64,000 nucleotides of DNA from Cellulophaga baltica (GTDB taxonomy: Bacteria > Bacteroidota > Bacteroidia > Flavobacteriales > Flavobacteriaceae). Under the pieces are notes generated by a model. The model did no database searches and was not told the origin of the DNA. It saw only the letters and a program-made list of their open reading frames with translations. Numbering within the stretch: position 1 is the first letter of the stretch; each line of letters begins with the position of its first letter. A program made the translations under genes and the position numbers. The DNA lies in contig NZ_JAHKQN010000018.1 in assembly GCF_018861125.1 (NCBI RefSeq), positions 124,001 to 188,000 of the forward strand, written 5' to 3'. Shown one piece after another: positions 35,464 through 42,369 of the stretch.

Positions 35464-38400
35464 ATGAGTTTTATAAATTCTGTCTTAAAAGTCTTTGTAG
35501 GCGATAAAGCAAAAAAAGACGTTAAGGTACTACAACCAATAATAAATAAAATACATGCTTTTGAAAAAGAGCTAGAACTTTTAACTATTGATGAGATAAG
35601 GCAGAAAACAATCGATTTTAAAGAACAAATAAAAGAAGATTGTAAAGCAATAAACGACAAAATTAATGTTTTAGAAGAAGAAGTAAAAGCTTCAAAAGAC
35701 ATTGATAAAAATGAAGATATTTATGCTGAAATTGATAAGCTTAAAAAAGAAGTTTATGAAATATCAGAAAAAACGTTAAAAAAGATCCTCCCAGAAGCTT
35801 TTGCAGTAGTTAAAGAAACTGCAAAACGATTCGCAAACAATCCAACACTAGAAGTTACAGCATCAGAATTTGATAGAGAATTATCGGGCACTAAAGAGTA
35901 TGTTAGTTTAGAAGGTGATAAAGCTATTTGGAAAAACTCATGGAACGCCGCTGGTAAAGAAGTCACTTGGGACATGATACATTATGATGTTCAATTAATT
36001 GGTGGTATTGCACTTCACGAAGGTAAAATTGCAGAAATGCAAACTGGTGAAGGTAAAACCTTAGTTGCAACATTACCTTTATATTTAAATGCCTTAACTG
36101 GTAACGGTACTCACCTAGTAACAGTTAACGATTACCTTGCAAAACGTGATAGCGCATGGATGGCTCCTTTATTCCAATTTCACGGAATGACAATTGATTG
36201 CATTGACAATCACCAACCGAACTCTGAAGGTAGACGTGCTGCTTACAATGCAGACATTACCTACGGTACTAATAACGAATTTGGTTTTGATTACTTAAGA
36301 GATAACATGGCACATGCACCAAGTGATTTGGTACAACGTCCACATAACTTTGCAATTGTCGATGAGGTCGATTCTGTTTTAGTTGATGATGCTCGTACAC
36401 CTTTAATTATTTCTGGTCCTGTACCAAAAGGTGATATTCACGAATTTGATGAACTTAAACCAAAAGTGAATGATATTGTTCATTTACAAAAACAATATTT
36501 AACAGGTGTTTTAGCTGAAGCTAAAAAGTTGATAAACGCAGGTGACACAAAAGAAGGTGGTTTTCAACTATTACGTGTTCACCGTGGTTTACCAAAAAAC
36601 AAAGCATTAATTAAATTTTTAAGTGAAGAAGGGGTTAAACAATTGCTTCAAAAAACTGAAAATTTCTATATGCAAGATAATAACCGTGAAATGCCTAAAA
36701 TAGATGAGGCATTATGGTTTGTTATTGATGAAAAAAACAATCAAATTGAACTTACTGAAAAAGGTGTTGGTCACATCTCTGGAGAACAAGACAGGGAGTT
36801 TTTTGTGATGCCAGATATTGGTGGTGAAATTGCAAAAATAGAAAACCAAAATCTTGAAGTTGAAGAAGAAGCTGAATTAAAAGAAGAGCTTTTTAAAGAA
36901 TTTGGCGTAAAAAGTGAACGAATTCATACTTTAAACCAATTATTAAAAGCATACACTCTTTTTGAAAAAGATGTGGAATATGTAGTAATGGATAACAAAG
37001 TAATGATTGTTGATGAACAAACTGGTCGTATTATGGATGGTCGTCGTTATTCTGACGGATTACACCAAGCCATTGAGGCTAAAGAAAATGTGAAGATTGA
37101 AGCTGCAACACAAACATTTGCAACGGTAACTTTACAAAACTACTTTAGAATGTACAGCAAGCTTGCTGGTATGACAGGTACTGCAATTACTGAAGCAGGT
37201 GAATTCTGGGAAATTTACGAGTTAGATGTTATGGAAATTCCTACTAACAGACCAATTGCTCGTGATGACAGAAACGATTTAATTTATAAAACTAAGCGTG
37301 AAAAATATAATGCAATTATAGAAGAGGTCACAAAACTTTCTGCTGCAGGTAGACCAGTTTTAATTGGTACAACATCTGTAGAGATTTCTGAACTTTTATC
37401 ACGTATGCTTAGCATTAGAAAAGTACCACACAATGTACTGAATGCAAAAATGCATAAAAAAGAGGCTGATATTGTTGAAGAAGCTGGTAAAGCTGGTATT
37501 GTAACAATAGCAACCAATATGGCTGGTCGTGGTACCGATATTAAATTATCAACTGAAGTTAAAAATGCTGGTGGTTTAGCTATTATTGGTACAGAGCGTC
37601 ATGATTCTCGTCGTGTAGATAGACAGTTACGTGGTCGTTCTGGTCGTCAAGGAGATCCTGGAAGCTCTCAATTTTATGTTTCTTTAGAAGATAACCTAAT
37701 GCGTTTATTCGGCTCTGATAGAGTGGCTAAGATGATGGATAAGATGGGGTTAGAAGATGGTGAAGTTATTCAACATTCAATGATGACCAAATCTATTGAG
37801 CGTGCACAGAAAAAAGTTGAAGAAAATAACTTTGGTGTTCGTAAGCGATTATTAGAGTACGATGATGTAATGAATGCACAAAGGGAAGTTATTTACAAAA
37901 GACGTCGTCATGCATTACAAGGCGAACGTTTAAAAGTAGATATCGCAAACATGATTTATGATACTTGTGAAGTTATTGCCGAAGACAATAAAAATGCAAG
38001 TGATTATAAAAATTTCGAATTCGAATTAATTAAATATTTTGCAATCACCTCTCCTATTTCTGAAGATGAGTTTGCTAAAAAGAATGTTACTGAAATAGCT
38101 AACATACTTTACAAAGAAGCTTTCGCTCACTATGAGCAAAAAATGGAGCGTAGTGCTACAACAGCTTATAAAGTTATTAAAAGCGTTTACGAAGACGAAG
38201 CAAATAAATTTGAGCGTATCGTTGTTCCTTTTTCTGATGGCATCAAAACTTTTAATATTGTTACCAACTTAAAAGATGCCTATGAAAGTGATGGGAAGCA
38301 ACTGGTGAATGATTTTGAAAAAAATATCACATTAGCAATTGTTGATGATTCTTGGAAAGTTCATTTACGTAAAATGGATGAATTAAAACAATCTGTTCAA

Positions 38401-38829
38401 CTTGCAGTTCACGAACAAAAAGATCCTCTTCTAATTTACAAGTTTGAAGCTTTTGAATTATTCAAAAGAATGATTGAAAAAGTAAACAAAGAAGTTATCT
38501 CATTCTTATATAAAGGTGAAATACCAAATGGTAATGATACTAACATACAAGAAGCTAGAACAACAAGTCGCCCAAAAGAAAAGTTAAACGTTAGTAAAGA
38601 AGAAGTTTTAAATAGTGATGAACTCGCTGCACAGAATAGAGCTGTGGGTCAAAATCAAGGGAATAACAAACCTCAAGTTACCGAAACAATTACAAGAGAA
38701 GCTCCAAAAATTGGAAGAAATGACCGTGTAACTATTAAAAACGTAATGACTGGTGAAAGTAAAACTGTGAAATTCAAACAAGCAGAGCCTTTAATCACTA
38801 AAGGAGAATGGGTTATTACTCAAGAATAG
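35464..38829 (+). CDS. secA: Preprotein translocase ATPase SecA
   Basis: The motor of Sec-dependent export. 1121 aa, longer than E. coli SecA (901) because of insertions typical of Bacteroidota. Seen: N-terminal [16 protein letters not shown], Walker [20 protein letters not shown] (about 194-212), [36 protein letters not shown], and the second nucleotide-binding domain with [12 protein letters not shown] and [14 protein letters not shown]. The C-terminal tail ends in [20 protein letters not shown] and lacks the CxCx8CH zinc/SecB-binding tail. ATP cycle and SecYEG contact are intact as far as can be seen. Confidence 0.98.
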
Positions 38830-39007: not shown

Positions 39008-40210
39008 ATGGCAAACCGAGCACGCCTAAAGTATAAAACCAACCTATTTTTAAAGGTAACCTATATCTCCTCAGCAGTATGCGCTTTATTTGCATTTGCA
39101 TGTTATTTTCTATTAAACATAAAAGTAGTAATACCTACTACGTTATTAATCTATAGCTTACTTAATATTATAAATATTCTTTTATTTTTAAAACACAAGA
39201 GAATAACTATCACCTATAATTTAACCTCAATATTTACATTAATCAGCACTGTAATAATTACATTATTTAGTGGTGGTATTAATAGTCCATTTATTTTCAT
39301 GCTCGGGCTTATAGTTTTTGCAAGTTATATAAATGCCAAAAAGCTCGGAGCGTTTTACTTATACTTGACATTTTTAATAATAACGTTATTATTTTTAGCT
39401 AATATTTTTGAACCTTCATTTATAACAAATGAAGTGCCTGATGCTTCTAAAAACTGGTTTAGTTTTATAAGTGTATTATTTGCAATGTATTTACTTGGTG
39501 CTGTATTTGGTAAATTATTAATTAAAGCTCAAAGTGAAATATATTCTTCAAAAGTTGCTTTTGAGAAAAAAGTAAAAGAAAAAGATACTTTAATAAAAGA
39601 GGTTCACCATAGAGTTAAAAACAATTTACAAACAGTAAGTAGTCTTCTTAGTTTACAAGCACGTAGTATAAAAGACACAGAAATTAAAACCATGATAAAA
39701 AGTAGCCAAAATAGAGTAAACTCCATGGCTATGGTTCACGAAATGCTATACATGCGCGAAGATTTATCTAAAATTGAATACAAATCGTATGTGGAAGAAT
39801 TAAGTGAATACCTTGTAAGATCTATAAAGGGTACTGATAATGGAATTAAAGTAGATATAGATATTATTGATATCAATTTAGGAATTGACACTGCTATACC
39901 ACTTGGCTTACTAATTAATGAAGCTATTACAAATTCATTAAAATACGGTATAAAAGAAAACACTGGAGGAGAAATAAATATTTCTCTTAAAAAAGAAACT
40001 GAAAATGATTATGTATTGAATATAGGTGATAATGGTGAAGGATATCCAGAAACTATTACTCCTAAAAATTCAAAATCTTTAGGTCTAAAATTAATTTACA
40101 ATTTAACACGACAATTAAAAGGTTCCATATTAAAAGACGCTACTAAAAAAGGAACTAATTATATTATTACTTTCAAAGAAATTAACCAGACTTTTCACCC
40201 GGCTCAATAA
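39008..40210 (+). CDS. Membrane sensor histidine kinase (HisKA_2)
   Basis: A 400-aa kinase. Residues 1-175 hold about six membrane helices with very short loops, like a 6TM sensor without a periplasmic domain. A coiled linker (FEKKVKEKDTLIK) leads to the HisKA_2 dimerisation box EVHHRVKNNLQTVSSLL (about 199-215, phospho-His in HH), then an HATPase with N-box NEAITNSLKYGI and G-box GDNGEGYP. No response regulator is adjacent on this strand; a stand-alone receiver is at 50.9 kb. It is convergent with the small-secreted-protein cluster, 13 nt apart, which makes a functional link worth testing. Confidence 0.92.
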   Translation: MANRARLKYKTNLFLKVTYISSAVCALFAFACYFLLNIKVVIPTTLLIYSLLNIINILLFLKHKRITITYNLTSIFTLISTVIITLFSGGINSPFIFMLGLIVFASYINAKKLGAFYLYLTFLIITLLFLANIFEPSFITNEVPDASKNWFSFISVLFAMYLLGAVFGKLLIKAQSEIYSSKVAFEKKVKEKDTLIKEVHHRVKNNLQTVSSLLSLQARSIKDTEIKTMIKSSQNRVNSMAMVHEMLYMREDLSKIEYKSYVEELSEYLVRSIKGTDNGIKVDIDIIDINLGIDTAIPLGLLINEAITNSLKYGIKENTGGEINISLKKETENDYVLNIGDNGEGYPETITPKNSKSLGLKLIYNLTRQLKGSILKDATKKGTNYIITFKEINQTFHPAQ

Positions 40211-40223
40211 AGAAGTAATTTAT

Positions 40224-40337
40224 TTACTTTTTCACTCTAACTTTAATTATCTTTAATGTTCTTTTTTTATAATTATTGTAAATCAAAAAAATTGTACTAA
40301 ATACTAGAGACAAAGCTACTACTATTAAAGTCATCAT
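40224..40337 (-). CDS. 37-aa single-span membrane peptide behind small secreted protein 1
   Basis: The ORF begins 2 nt after the stop of the 40340-40573 gene (M-M-T-L-I-V-V-A-L-S-L-V...). One hydrophobic helix (about residues 3-19) is followed by a basic tail (NNYKKRTLKIIKVRVKK). The peptide encoded 2 nt after the third paralogue (41179-41253) has the same layout and similar residues (TL, hydrophobic run, LIY/LLY, N). The repeated, exact 2-nt spacing supports a real gene. Function unknown; toxin-like, regulatory or signal roles are all possible. Confidence 0.5.
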   Translation of the reverse strand: MMTLIVVALSLVFSTIFLIYNNYKKRTLKIIKVRVKK

Positions 40338-40339
40338 AA

Positions 40340-40573
40340 TTAAGCTAATTTAATTTTGTTATATGTTGCTTCAAAAGACAATGCTTTTAAAACTTCGTGA
40401 TTTTTTGTCTTATATAAACGAACAGTTTTAACATCAGTACTTTTAATTAACCTCTGTTTTATTAAAACTGTGCTTTTTACTTCGCACGCTTTTACAACTA
40501 AAGCAGGTTTATCTTGAGCTTTAGCGATAAATCCTATAAAAAGAAAAAATATAATAGTTAAAATAGCTTTCAT
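40340..40573 (-). CDS. Small secreted protein, paralogue 1
   Basis: 77 aa: signal peptide MKAILTIIFFLFIGFIAKA then QDKP; mature part about 58 aa, basic, ending KIKLA. The most divergent of the three paralogues. It keeps the core K-T-V-R-L-Y-x(2-3)-N-x-E/K-V-x-K-x-L-x-F and the terminal K-x-K-L-A. Its TAnnTTTA box and ACCCCAAGnCATGA start context match the other copies. It has extra cysteines around residues 30 (ACEVK) in the mature region. A membrane mini-ORF follows after 2 nt. No family was recognised. Confidence 0.75.
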   Translation of the reverse strand: MKAILTIIFFLFIGFIAKAQDKPALVVKACEVKSTVLIKQRLIKSTDVKTVRLYKTKNHEVLKALSFEATYNKIKLA

Positions 40574-40629
40574 GTCTTGGGGTATTCTTCTGTAAATATA
40601 TTACTTAAAAGAAATATATTTTACACCTA

Positions 40630-40661
40630 GTCGCTCAGCGACATGTATCTGTCGGTCGCTG
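40630..40661. repeat. GTCGC/GCGAC repeat cluster upstream of paralogue 1
   Basis: GTCGC TCA GCGAC is a perfect 5-bp inverted repeat (40630-40642), and CAGCGAC (40636-40642) is again mirrored by GTCGCTG (40655-40661). This places three half-sites in 32 bp, 57 nt before the ATG. It shares the AGCGA core with the direct repeats before paralogues 2 and 3. Possibly a regulator binding site. Confidence 0.5.
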
Positions 40662-40727
40662 AATAATTAACTTCCTTTATTTAACCCATTTTACGCTTTC
40701 AAAACTAACTCGTAAAATAAAACTTGT

Positions 40728-40958
40728 TTAAGCTAATTTTGTTTTCTTAATTTTAGTTGAAAAAGATAATTCTTTTAAAACCTTATAATTTTTGTTCATA
40801 TATAAACGAGCAACTTCAGTTTCATTACTTGTCATTACTTCTTTTACTAACACAATATTCTCTTTTTTAGCCGCTTCTTTTACTGATGCTGCATTTTCTT
40901 GTGCATTAGCAAAAAGACCGATAAAAAGAACAAATGTGATAGTTAAAATAGTTTTCAT
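40728..40958 (-). CDS. Small secreted protein, paralogue 2
   Basis: 76 aa: signal peptide MKTILTITFVLFIGLFANA then QEN; mature part about 57 aa. The conserved core is VARLYMNKNYKVLKELSF followed by STKIKKTKLA, close to paralogue 3 (ARLYMDRNYKVKKELAF). No Cys in the mature part. The 5' untranslated leader and promoter block are duplicated from or to paralogue 3. No membrane mini-ORF survives behind it; the equivalent position reads AAG TTT and closes after a few codons. Function unknown. Confidence 0.78.
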   Translation of the reverse strand: MKTILTITFVLFIGLFANAQENAASVKEAAKKENIVLVKEVMTSNETEVARLYMNKNYKVLKELSFSTKIKKTKLA

Positions 40959-40974
40959 GACTTGGGTTTTTCTT

Positions 40975-41084
40975 TTGTAAAGGTAGTATTAAGACCAAGT
41001 ATTCTAATTGTAAATTCGCTTAACACCCATTAAATTTCGCTGTCTGAATTAAAAGCAGACAAAGTGTTATAATTGCTCGGTAAC
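40975..41084 (-). repeat. Duplicated promoter block, copy A (upstream of paralogue 2)
   Basis: This ~110-nt stretch is similar to 41516-41625 over its full length. It ends at the TAnnTTTA box and contains ACTTG, two AGCGA copies exactly 21 bp apart, a CAGAC-type motif and a GAGCAA-type motif in the same order. It indicates tandem duplication of gene plus promoter with a unit of about 541 bp. Confidence 0.75.
41016..41041 (-). promoter_or_regulatory. Direct repeat AGCGA, 21-bp spacing (paralogue 2)
   Basis: Minus-strand AGCGA at 41041-41037 and 41020-41016, period 21 bp (two helical turns), about 31-56 nt upstream of the TACCTTTA box. The identical arrangement precedes paralogue 3. Confidence 0.5.
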
Positions 41085-41178
41085 TGCAAAAAACTTAAAT
41101 ATAGGTTACCGAATTTTTTGGTATTTAAACGAATGAAATAAAAAGTAAAAGAGCAGTAAAGAAAGCTTTGAAAGTATT

Positions 41179-41253
41179 TTAATCTTTTTGATTAAAATAA
41201 AGTAATTGAAAGACTACTGAAATAATAAGTATAAGAACTAAAAGCGTTAACAC
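41179..41253 (-). CDS. 24-aa membrane peptide behind small secreted protein 3 (GTG start)
   Basis: The ORF starts with GTG 2 nt after the 41256-41498 gene and encodes a 24-residue hydrophobic peptide (L-T-L-L-V-L-I-L-I-I-S-V-V-F-Q-L-L-Y-F-N-Q-K-D after the start). It aligns with the first part of the 37-aa peptide behind paralogue 1 (M-T-L-I-V-V-A-L...). It has the same position and spacing, but a shorter tail and a non-ATG start. Small ORFs arise by chance in A/T-rich DNA; the paired occurrence is the main support. Confidence 0.45.
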   Translation of the reverse strand: MLTLLVLILIISVVFQLLYFNQKD

Positions 41254-41255
41254 TA

Positions 41256-41498
41256 TTATGCTAATTTAGATTTGTTAGCTTTAGTTTTAAAAGCTAATTC
41301 TTTTTTTACTTTGTAATTTCTATCCATATATAAACGAGCTACAGAATTTTCAGTAGTGTTTAATTCTTTTGTTACATTTTCATTTGCGATAACTACTTGC
41401 TCAGTTTTAACTGGATTAGATTCAACTTTAGCATTGTCTTGTGCATTAGCAAAAAGACCGATAAATAAAACAAATATAATAGTAACAATAGCTTTCAT
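41256..41498 (-). CDS. Small secreted protein, paralogue 3
   Basis: 80 aa: signal peptide MKAIVTIIFVLFIGLFANA then QDNAK; mature part about 61 aa with ARLYMDRNYKVKKELAF and a terminal NKSKLA. The signal peptide is nearly identical to paralogue 2 (FVLFIGLFANAQ). First copy of the array in reading direction; the promoter block is the upstream twin of paralogue 2. No known domain is recognised. The conserved RLY-x-x-x-NYKV-x-KEL motif and KLA end suggest a short secreted peptide or periplasmic protein with a fixed function. Confidence 0.78.
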   Translation of the reverse strand: MKAIVTIIFVLFIGLFANAQDNAKVESNPVKTEQVVIANENVTKELNTTENSVARLYMDRNYKVKKELAFKTKANKSKLA

Positions 41499-41515
41499 AA
41501 CTTGGGGTTTTCTTT

Positions 41516-41625
41516 TTGTAAAGGTACCTTCAGTTACAAGTATTTAAATTTAAAAATCGCTCAAAAACCCCTATTTTTCGCTATCTGAACAAAAAACAGA
41601 CAAAGTGTATTTAATGCTCGATAAC
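41516..41625 (-). repeat. Duplicated promoter block, copy B (upstream of paralogue 3)
   Basis: Twin of 40975-41084: same order of TAnnTTTA box, ACTTG, two AGCGA copies 21 bp apart (41561-41557 and 41582-41578) and CAGA/GAGCA motifs, with scattered substitutions. The sequence divergence suggests an old rather than recent duplication. Confidence 0.75.
41557..41582 (-). promoter_or_regulatory. Direct repeat AGCGA, 21-bp spacing (paralogue 3)
   Basis: Minus-strand AGCGA at 41582-41578 and 41561-41557, period 21 bp, about 31-56 nt upstream of the TACCTTTA box at 41519-41526. Confidence 0.5.
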
Positions 41626-41685
41626 GGAATTTGAGCTAAAAATCGGTGGTCGAATCAATGTGTATTTCATCGATACGAATTTAAA

Positions 41686-42369
41686 TTACAATTTTATTAA
41701 TAGATTAGGATTAGGGCAATTATTACGGTAAAAAGTGGTGTCTTTTTGATTACACACTCCTGGATAGTCCCCTTTATAGTTTCCTAAATCTTTTATAACT
41801 TGAAAATGCAAATGCGGAGCATAGTTTACATTTATATCTGGAGTGCCTAGTTGAGCTAACACATCCCCTTTAGTAAGAAGTTCTCCTACTACTATATTAT
41901 TTAATGATTCTATAGATAAATGACCATATAAAGTATAAAACTGCTCACCCTTTAAATTATGTTCTAAAATTATAGTAGGGCCGTAATCACCACTGGTATT
42001 ATTATTTTTAAAACTATGTACTACCCCTTCTAAAGGAACAATTACATTTGTTCCTGCTTTTGCCCAATAATCAATACCTAAATGAATGTTTCGGATTGTT
42101 TCTTCATTTCCAGAGAAACTACTCTTATCCGCATAGATGTTTCTTTTCTCTAAATAACCACCATAAGCAACTAAAGCATTATCCTTATTAAGGACCTCCT
42201 CTTCAATATATATTTGACAAGCATCAGGATTGGTAATTTTAACACCTTTTAATTCCTTATTAGTTTCAGATAAATCTAAGCTCGTATATTTATTTAAAGG
42301 AATGCCATTATCTAAGATAGAAATTGGTGCTTCAGATAAAGAAAATAAATAATGCTCGAATATATTCAT
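41686..42369 (-). CDS. M23 family metallopeptidase (LytM/peptidase M23)
   Basis: A 227-aa zinc endopeptidase that cleaves peptidoglycan cross-bridges. The M23 domain covers about residues 85-215, with zinc ligands HLGIDYW (His92, Asp96) and HLHFQV (second His of HLH, about 187), and the catalytic-side segment YTLYGHLS. The first 80 residues are not a clear signal peptide, and the enzyme carries no LysM or anchor, so the export route is uncertain. Single-gene unit, divergent from msrA (122 nt). Confidence 0.9.
   Translation of the reverse strand: MNIFEHYLFSLSEAPISILDNGIPLNKYTSLDLSETNKELKGVKITNPDACQIYIEEEVLNKDNALVAYGGYLEKRNIYADKSSFSGNEETIRNIHLGIDYWAKAGTNVIVPLEGVVHSFKNNNTSGDYGPTIILEHNLKGEQFYTLYGHLSIESLNNIVVGELLTKGDVLAQLGTPDINVNYAPHLHFQVIKDLGNYKGDYPGVCNQKDTTFYRNNCPNPNLLIKL

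Follow-up and report, generated by a model that had tools for sequence, protein, structure and literature searches.

A family of small exported-type cationic proteins in Cellulophaga and its relatives, with a LytTR-style upstream operator and homologues in phages

The window analyzed here is a stretch of 64,000 nucleotides of Cellulophaga baltica DNA (NCBI RefSeq assembly GCF_018861125.1, contig NZ_JAHKQN010000018.1, forward-strand positions 124,001 to 188,000). We focused on three small minus-strand genes with predicted signal peptides, arranged head to tail and convergent with a HisKA_2 histidine kinase gene and with a gene that we take from its sequence to be secA. An earlier description made from the letters only (hereafter, the sequence-only reading) reported three paralogues of 76-80 amino acids (aa) with near-identical signal peptides ending in ANAQ or AKAQ, an RLY core and KLA ends, and all of these are present, although gene 3 deviates from the common core (KNHEV, EATYN). 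The HisKA_2 kinase that it placed opposite the array has the corresponding Pfam match (Table 1). Its proposal of an undescribed secreted-peptide system holds for a family larger than first noted, to which we add an operator, conservation of a microprotein, a candidate LytTR regulator, a signal-less form, and phage copies.

Table 1 Features of the peptide locus, in positions of the window.
Feature	Position	Strand	Basis or remark
Secreted peptide gene 1, 80 aa	41256..41498	-	signal peptide and core; full-length homologues clade-wide
Secreted peptide gene 2, 76 aa	40728..40958	-	59% identity to gene 1
Secreted peptide gene 3, 77 aa, divergent core, array end	40340..40573	-	42% identity to gene 1
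Microprotein, 37 aa, single transmembrane segment, basic C-terminal tail KIIKVRVKK	40224..40337	-	starts 2 base pairs (bp) behind gene 3
Possible second tiny transmembrane open reading frame (ORF), 24 aa, GTG start, no basic tail	41179..41253	-	ORF scan
Predicted gene 1 operator; CGA boxes 41580 and 41559, 21 bp apart; inverted boxes and upstream pair	41516..41663	-	R1 E 5.1e-24, training-set member
Predicted gene 2 operator; CGA boxes 41039 and 41018	40976..41112	-	R1 E 4.6e-18, training-set member
Predicted gene 3 reduced operator; CGA boxes 40654 and 40633, 21 bp	40591..40670	-	weak R1 E 0.004, outside training set
HisKA_2 histidine kinase, hydrophobic N-terminal half, GGINSPF motif; candidate input	39008..40210	+	Pfam E 5.9e-28
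secA (presumed), one edge of conserved locus	35464..38829	+	ORF; conserved synteny
M23 peptidase, opposite edge of conserved locus	41686..42369	-	Pfam, synteny

An alignment of 37 members revealed the architecture of the family, namely a signal peptide, a variable linker, and a cationic C-terminal core of ~28 residues (RLYKxKNxxVKKxLxFxTKxxKxKLA) that forms the conserved part. The same combination of signal peptide, variable linker and RLY...KLA core characterizes the 100 members detected at E < 1e-6 in 40 genomic regions. An AxA site could be located in 152 of 191 unique proteins; in these, the charge averaged +8.0 (standard deviation 2.0) over the core and -2.4 over the linker. The core has diversified little within or between species and is conserved across genera. 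Codon-level constraint was also evident, with ratios of nonsynonymous to synonymous substitution rates (dN/dS) of 0.08-0.69 in six of seven pairs of secreted peptides, indicating purifying selection (dS was 0 in the seventh).

The source genome encodes four more secreted paralogues (at C5:16859, 20807 and 26738, and C33:97463) and one signal-less form (C31:201873). Gene 1 was matched in all 18 Cellulophaga genomes (E <= 1e-3), and the family profile in 49 of 299 Flavobacteriaceae genomes at E <= 1e-8; 18 candidates were scored per genome in this survey, and 80 of the 129 hits, with E-values of 2e-6 to 1e-3, were excluded from the family as assumed signal-peptide matches. A draw of 395 genomes across the phylum gave six matches at E <= 1e-6, all within Flavobacteriaceae. 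Maribacter, Zeaxanthinibacter, Eudoraea and Robiginitalea are among the named relatives carrying the family, the nearest of which shares 75% identity over gene 1. Tandem arrays recur across genera. A single genome (G067) had 11 family-profile matches. One gene (L152:10286-10579) has an operator and a signal peptide followed by another C-terminus with no core match.

As the sequence-only reading held, the peptides belong to no named family. The best Pfam match among the 37 members had an E-value of 0.0015 and involved one member, the window peptides having none; NCBIfam gave the window peptides no match near a cut-off, the best hit in a PDB sequence search was at E 0.21, and five proteins had no match in PADLOC. 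Literature searches on secreted proteins of Cellulophaga and Maribacter, Cellulophaga RNA-seq, and LytTR sites in Bacteroidetes found nothing. The peptides form an undescribed family of small, cationic proteins of exported type in Cellulophaga and relatives.

A conserved alignment of ~130 bp precedes the peptide genes, in which we read by eye three pairs of boxes in forward, reverse and forward orientation. Among 121 upstream regions less than 75% alike, CGA-CGA occurred 77 times at 21 bp (1.7 in single-base shuffles) and 45 times at 20 bp (2.1 in shuffles); as the upstream regions are homologous, these counts show that the spacing is conserved and are no sign of independent origin. No base pairs were predicted in the consensus fold of the region, which spoke against an RNA leader, and the element was therefore read as DNA. 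The sections of PMC4847170 available to us describe LytTR sites as two 9-11-nucleotide repeats with 11-13 nucleotides between them, located upstream of the promoter, and the 21- and 20-bp counts agree with that spacing, the repeat length being judged by eye. The Maribacter-type half-site CCGTTTATC also resembles that of AlgR, CCGTTTGTC (as given in the available part of PMC4064291).

We built a sequence-only operator model (R1) from 37 upstream sequences. In the source genome, where 150 of 6189 candidates were scored, its six best sites (E 5e-24 to 4e-17) each precede a family member, and four of them belong to the training sequences. Gene 3 has the seventh, at 0.004, and the next site is at 0.17. 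The duplicated promoters that the sequence-only reading assigned to two genes are thus correct but too modest, the third gene having a reduced version. None of the 40 regions contributed to the training set. They contain 89 sites at E < 1e-3, of which 88 precede members, and a strong operator is found for 88 of the 100 members there. The sole exception (L176:586-732, E 1.1e-7) has no family ORF behind it and is perhaps a relict. Further scans of family-positive and family-negative genomes scored 150 candidates each; across 11 family-positive genomes all 34 sites at E <= 1e-5 preceded members (compared by eye), with weaker sites (E 0.002-0.01) elsewhere. Strong operator matches thus stand before this family only, with one exception, and most of the secreted genes appear to be separate operator-plus-peptide units with an operator of LytTR style. 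Among known systems, BtsSR of E. coli likewise has paired repeats before its target gene, and the targets of YpdAB and BtsSR are transporters, unlike the secreted peptides here. For YpdAB, the paired repeats before the target gene are described in the same sections of PMC4847170.

Of the two tiny membrane ORFs noted by the sequence-only reading, the one behind gene 3 is real and conserved; the 24-aa ORF lacks the basic tail, falls below the size range searched, and is perhaps a degenerate microprotein. The microprotein profile was made from 26 seeds chosen for their position behind members and was applied to ORFs from 28 aa up; the window copy, itself a seed, matched at 2.2e-10. At E < 0.01 the profile matched 44 of 11,729 small ORFs. 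Of these, 43 lie within 400 bp behind a same-strand member and 40 within 75 bp, a zone that holds 97 of all the small ORFs. As a check on circularity, a profile of the 12 Cellulophaga seeds retrieved 19 ORFs in L152-L191 (E <= 0.1), 18 of them behind a member, and a profile of the other 14 seeds retrieved 10 ORFs in the earlier loci, nine behind a member. The matches fall in 42 regions, one in each of the 18 Cellulophaga genomes (weakly in G011, E 0.001) and 24 among 40 others, and dN/dS was 0.33 against the nearest relative and 0.09-0.41 in five pairs. One array member per genome is thus usually followed by a basic-tailed microprotein with a single transmembrane segment; set against the 210 family members scanned, the 44 matches leave most copies without one. 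A second type (MEVSL...KK, 36 aa) was seen 2 bp behind another array member in four loci (L063:8586, L065:9056, L066:10627 and L067:8821).

The signal-less host form, of 50 aa and identical core type (L016:6823-6975, G000:C31), occupies a conserved spot in 12 Cellulophaga loci, next to what is presumably a methionyl-tRNA synthetase-like gene. No operator was seen there by eye, and dN/dS was 0.06-0.15 in three pairs. The phage family phrog_26162 (PHROGs, function unknown) matches the core of gene 1 (E 2.7e-4), gene 2 (2.4e-4) and the signal-less form (1.1e-4), and differs in being a phage family without an assigned role. We took it as the group of phi18:1 gp19 from its length of 59 positions only; the term gp19 was not found in the available portion of the phi18:1 paper (PMC11946311).

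A tblastn search of 50,697 phage records with two signal-less forms used a permissive cut-off of E <= 10. The first returned 17 records (eight Cellulophaga, eight Maribacter, and one Cylindrospermopsis under a DnaJ-domain gene) and the second 23 (15 Cellulophaga and eight Maribacter). Single E-values were weak, from 0.04 upward; a Maribacter host protein matched the Molly/Colly records at 0.008, and gene 1 alone had no phage match at E <= 0.01 and no plasmid match. With the profile of the host core (Z set to 40,000), the scores were 3e-12 for Molly1_7, 1e-9 for both phi38:1 gp072 and Calle1_29, 5e-8 for phi12:1 gp18, and 1.6e-7 for phi18:1 gp19. On these scores, core homologues are clearly present in three groups of phages that infect Cellulophaga and Maribacter. 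Cbastvirus phi13:1 is probably a fourth, from an unannotated ORF first located through a match of E 0.8, which scored 1.5e-4 among 499 ORFs (best other, 0.0019, a short phi12:1 ORF). This ORF (L277, ending near 2093) has a signal-like N-terminus and a TKLC end, as in the Maribacter phage protein.

The taxonomy lines of these phages differ (Pervagoviridae Callevirus, Helsingorvirus, Molycolviridae Mollyvirus and Cbastvirus). By eye, signal-like N-termini are present in all of the groups except Callevirus (phi38:1, phi40:1, Calle). A small transmembrane gene follows the phage peptide in Mollyvirus (7-bp overlap) and Helsingorvirus (17 bp), and the host microprotein profile did not match these genes (best phage ORF, E 0.09). 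No operator was found in seven phage loci. A search of viral contigs gave no confirmed relative of A3, and A2 with Molly1_7 gave one contig, as long as Molly.

Across regions, secA, the kinase, the M23 peptidase and msrA form an old block; two ORFs of L017 were dropped from the synteny counts as signal-peptide matches, L059 is a match to the signal peptide alone, and L060, untranslated, was assumed to be the same. The pairing with a HisKA_2 kinase proposed in the sequence-only reading was borne out in part. Of 47 regions, 29 contain the kinase (46-77% identity), in up to three tandem copies; wherever the region includes secA, the kinase stands between it and the array. In L161, L172, L173 and L178, the space from secA to the array holds a tandem run of three window-type kinases, accompanied by one other gene. 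With thresholds of 1e-8 for the family and 1e-75 for the kinase, a kinase match was found in 45 of 49 family-positive genomes versus three of 250 others (299 genomes: both 45, family alone four, kinase alone three, neither 247). Two of the four family-only genomes (G167 and G193) have a shorter cluster kinase in the region, below the cut, and at E <= 1e-60 the kinase was found in none of 52 family-negative or weak genomes. Its dN/dS was 0.13 in one pair.

The pairing does not hold throughout Cellulophaga, in which a full-length kinase orthologue was present in 11 of 18 genomes and not found in seven, two of them (G004 and G007) single-contig. These seven retain peptides and microprotein, and six have operators at E <= 1.1e-24, several of them training sequences; the seventh, G011, in which a contig ends at the array, has only a weak one (E 0.009). 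In the synteny comparison, the kinase cluster was confined to the secA-type locus, with none beside dispersed paralogues. As the peptides persist in kinase-less genomes and the kinase stands only at the secA locus, the kinase could serve as an input or be an ancestral neighbor, and does not seem an obligatory partner. Its residues 7-132 weakly match the RegB model of NCBIfam (E 1.9e-4, far below the cut-off), and its GGINSPF is close to the RegB quinone motif GGXXNPF (in the excerpt of PMC8191878 consulted). The core of the kinase is HisKA_2, unlike RegB/PrrB kinases, and it has S for the N of the motif; quinone sensing is conjectural.

No LytTR gene lies near the arrays in the source genome. 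Its 14 LytTR matches include 12 that were compared by reciprocal best hit with two family-positive and five family-negative genomes, and among these L201 (85-86%) fits the presence pattern; one G208 and one G025 sequence were also missed in this comparison. All 49 family-positive genomes have the L201 response regulator, at 78-94% identity when the source genome is set aside, and in seven of seven genomes examined it stands together with a TPR-HisKA_2 kinase in a block of what we take to be menaquinone genes. In the source genome the pair lies at L238:6154-9279 (G000:C35). A LytTR-type circuit is the best-supported inference for the regulation, with the L201 regulator as a candidate binder. 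A LytTR Regulatory System, in which a LytTR gene adjoins that of a membrane inhibitor and direct repeats serve autoregulation, was rejected because the candidate regulator adjoins a HisKA_2 kinase and no R1 operator was found in its seven loci, other repeat types being unsought.

Our preferred reading, held tentatively and at less than even confidence, is a clade-specific regulon of two-component-controlled peptides that act on the producer's own envelope or sensors and have been captured by phages. The operator would be bound by a LytTR response regulator, most likely that of the menaquinone block with its TPR-HisKA_2 kinase, and the array-side kinase would be an optional second input. Once induced, the peptides would pass into the periplasm or out of the cell, where their target would be a conserved part of the producer's envelope or sensor, the microprotein would modulate their action from the inner membrane, and the phage copies would act on the same target. 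A core conserved across genera and in phages fits a conserved self-type target better than a diversifying weapon, and the signal-less forms likewise favor a self-directed target. The microprotein may be likened, by description and not by sequence, to MgrB and SafA, small membrane regulators encoded with two-component-type regulons; unlike these, it persists when the neighboring kinase is absent. A stronger version remains doubtful, namely a self-directed envelope switch of a new peptide-system class, run by a LytTR/HisKA_2 and possibly quinone-sensing circuit and copied separately by three or four different phage groups, some keeping the signal peptide and some not, to control it or to exclude rivals.

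Several observations weigh against the preferred reading. A purely envelope target does not explain the host and Callevirus forms that lack a signal peptide, whose action would be cytoplasmic. The structure models had low confidence (A2, mean predicted local distance difference test score 65 and predicted template modeling score 0.24; A3, 61 and 0.17), and a strong operator is missing for 12 of the 100 members found in the 40 regions. As to the regulator, a second LytTR protein, L202 (50-56%), fits the same pattern of two positives and five negatives, and two of the 14 stand outside the comparison. The L201 regulator also occurs in 11 of 250 family-negative genomes (43-77% identity), five of which were searched and had no strong operator (best E 0.003), nor did its own regions have an R1 operator (seven loci, best E 0.12). 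Its distribution follows one clade, as does the kinase pattern, and both co-occurrences are therefore clade-confounded.

The regulation might instead rest on an operator bound by a non-LytTR regulator, with an array-kinase adjacency that is only ancestral synteny. This alternative, compatible with any role of the peptides, is distinctly possible though short of an even chance: the old block around secA, the single clade behind both patterns, and the regulator without an operator in all five family-negative genomes searched agree with it. Repeats spaced at 20-21 bp and half-sites resembling that of AlgR are instead indicative of LytTR.

As to what the peptides do, they might mask receptors, binding a component at the surface or in the periplasm so that phage entry is blocked, with phage copies excluding rivals and host copies being inducible. 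Cor and Llp, superinfection-exclusion lipoproteins of phages, are similar in being small exported proteins in different phages of one host group. All of the three, probably four, phage groups infect Cellulophaga or Maribacter, three have signal-like N-termini and two the small transmembrane gene; we nevertheless consider this function unlikely, given the signal-less host and Callevirus forms, the failure to see a lipobox by eye in the peptides, unlike Cor and Llp, and the five proteins without a PADLOC match.

Bacteriocin-like cationic peptides, with the microprotein for immunity and LytTR control as in streptococci, would suit the cationic core behind an acidic linker, the tandem arrays, the LytTR-style operator and the small transmembrane gene behind one member. 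An ABC-transporter pair, which we liken to YbbA/YbbP, is present in 21 of 47 regions, not including the window's. Blp is one Gram-positive LytTR-controlled peptide regulon. Two others, HdrRM and BrsRM, also combine small peptides with two direct repeats ~21 bp apart (PMC6193735, in the part available); the present system differs in its Sec-type signal peptide, conserved core, HisKA_2 kinases, and source-genome arrays with no LytTR gene nearby. We regard this alternative as quite improbable, as the core hardly diversifies, most copies have no microprotein, and signal-less copies exist in hosts and phages. A described class II-type bacteriocin family was rejected on the Pfam and NCBIfam results.

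It is just as hard to see the processed core as an extracellular pheromone that accumulates, is sensed by the HisKA_2 kinases and feeds back on its own operator. Multi-copy signal-bearing peptides beside sensor kinases, sometimes two or three in tandem, and an operator of two-component style would fit, but the seven kinase-less Cellulophaga keep their peptides, their microprotein and, in six, strong operators; a Gram-negative Sec substrate stops in the periplasm unless a further step exists; and signal-less forms occur.

What were three anonymous ORFs can now be described as a defined regulon, for which an operator is predicted, a regulator proposed as a candidate, and a conserved microprotein and phage copies recognized; its hosts are marine bacteria that can be cultured. 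Such a LytTR-peptide circuit would be unusual for Bacteroidota if its peptides are self-directed, and the existence of phage copies suggests that some host component may be worth controlling in infection. Two further candidates were rejected: a phage spanin pair, which combines an outer-membrane lipoprotein with an inner-membrane protein whose domain is periplasmic, as no lipobox was seen by eye and the short basic tail of the host microprotein is cytoplasmic by the positive-inside rule, and a SecM-type secretion monitor, which would stand upstream within the secA operon and carry a cis-acting arrest sequence, as the array is convergent with secA and has its own operators, and paralogues lie far from secA.

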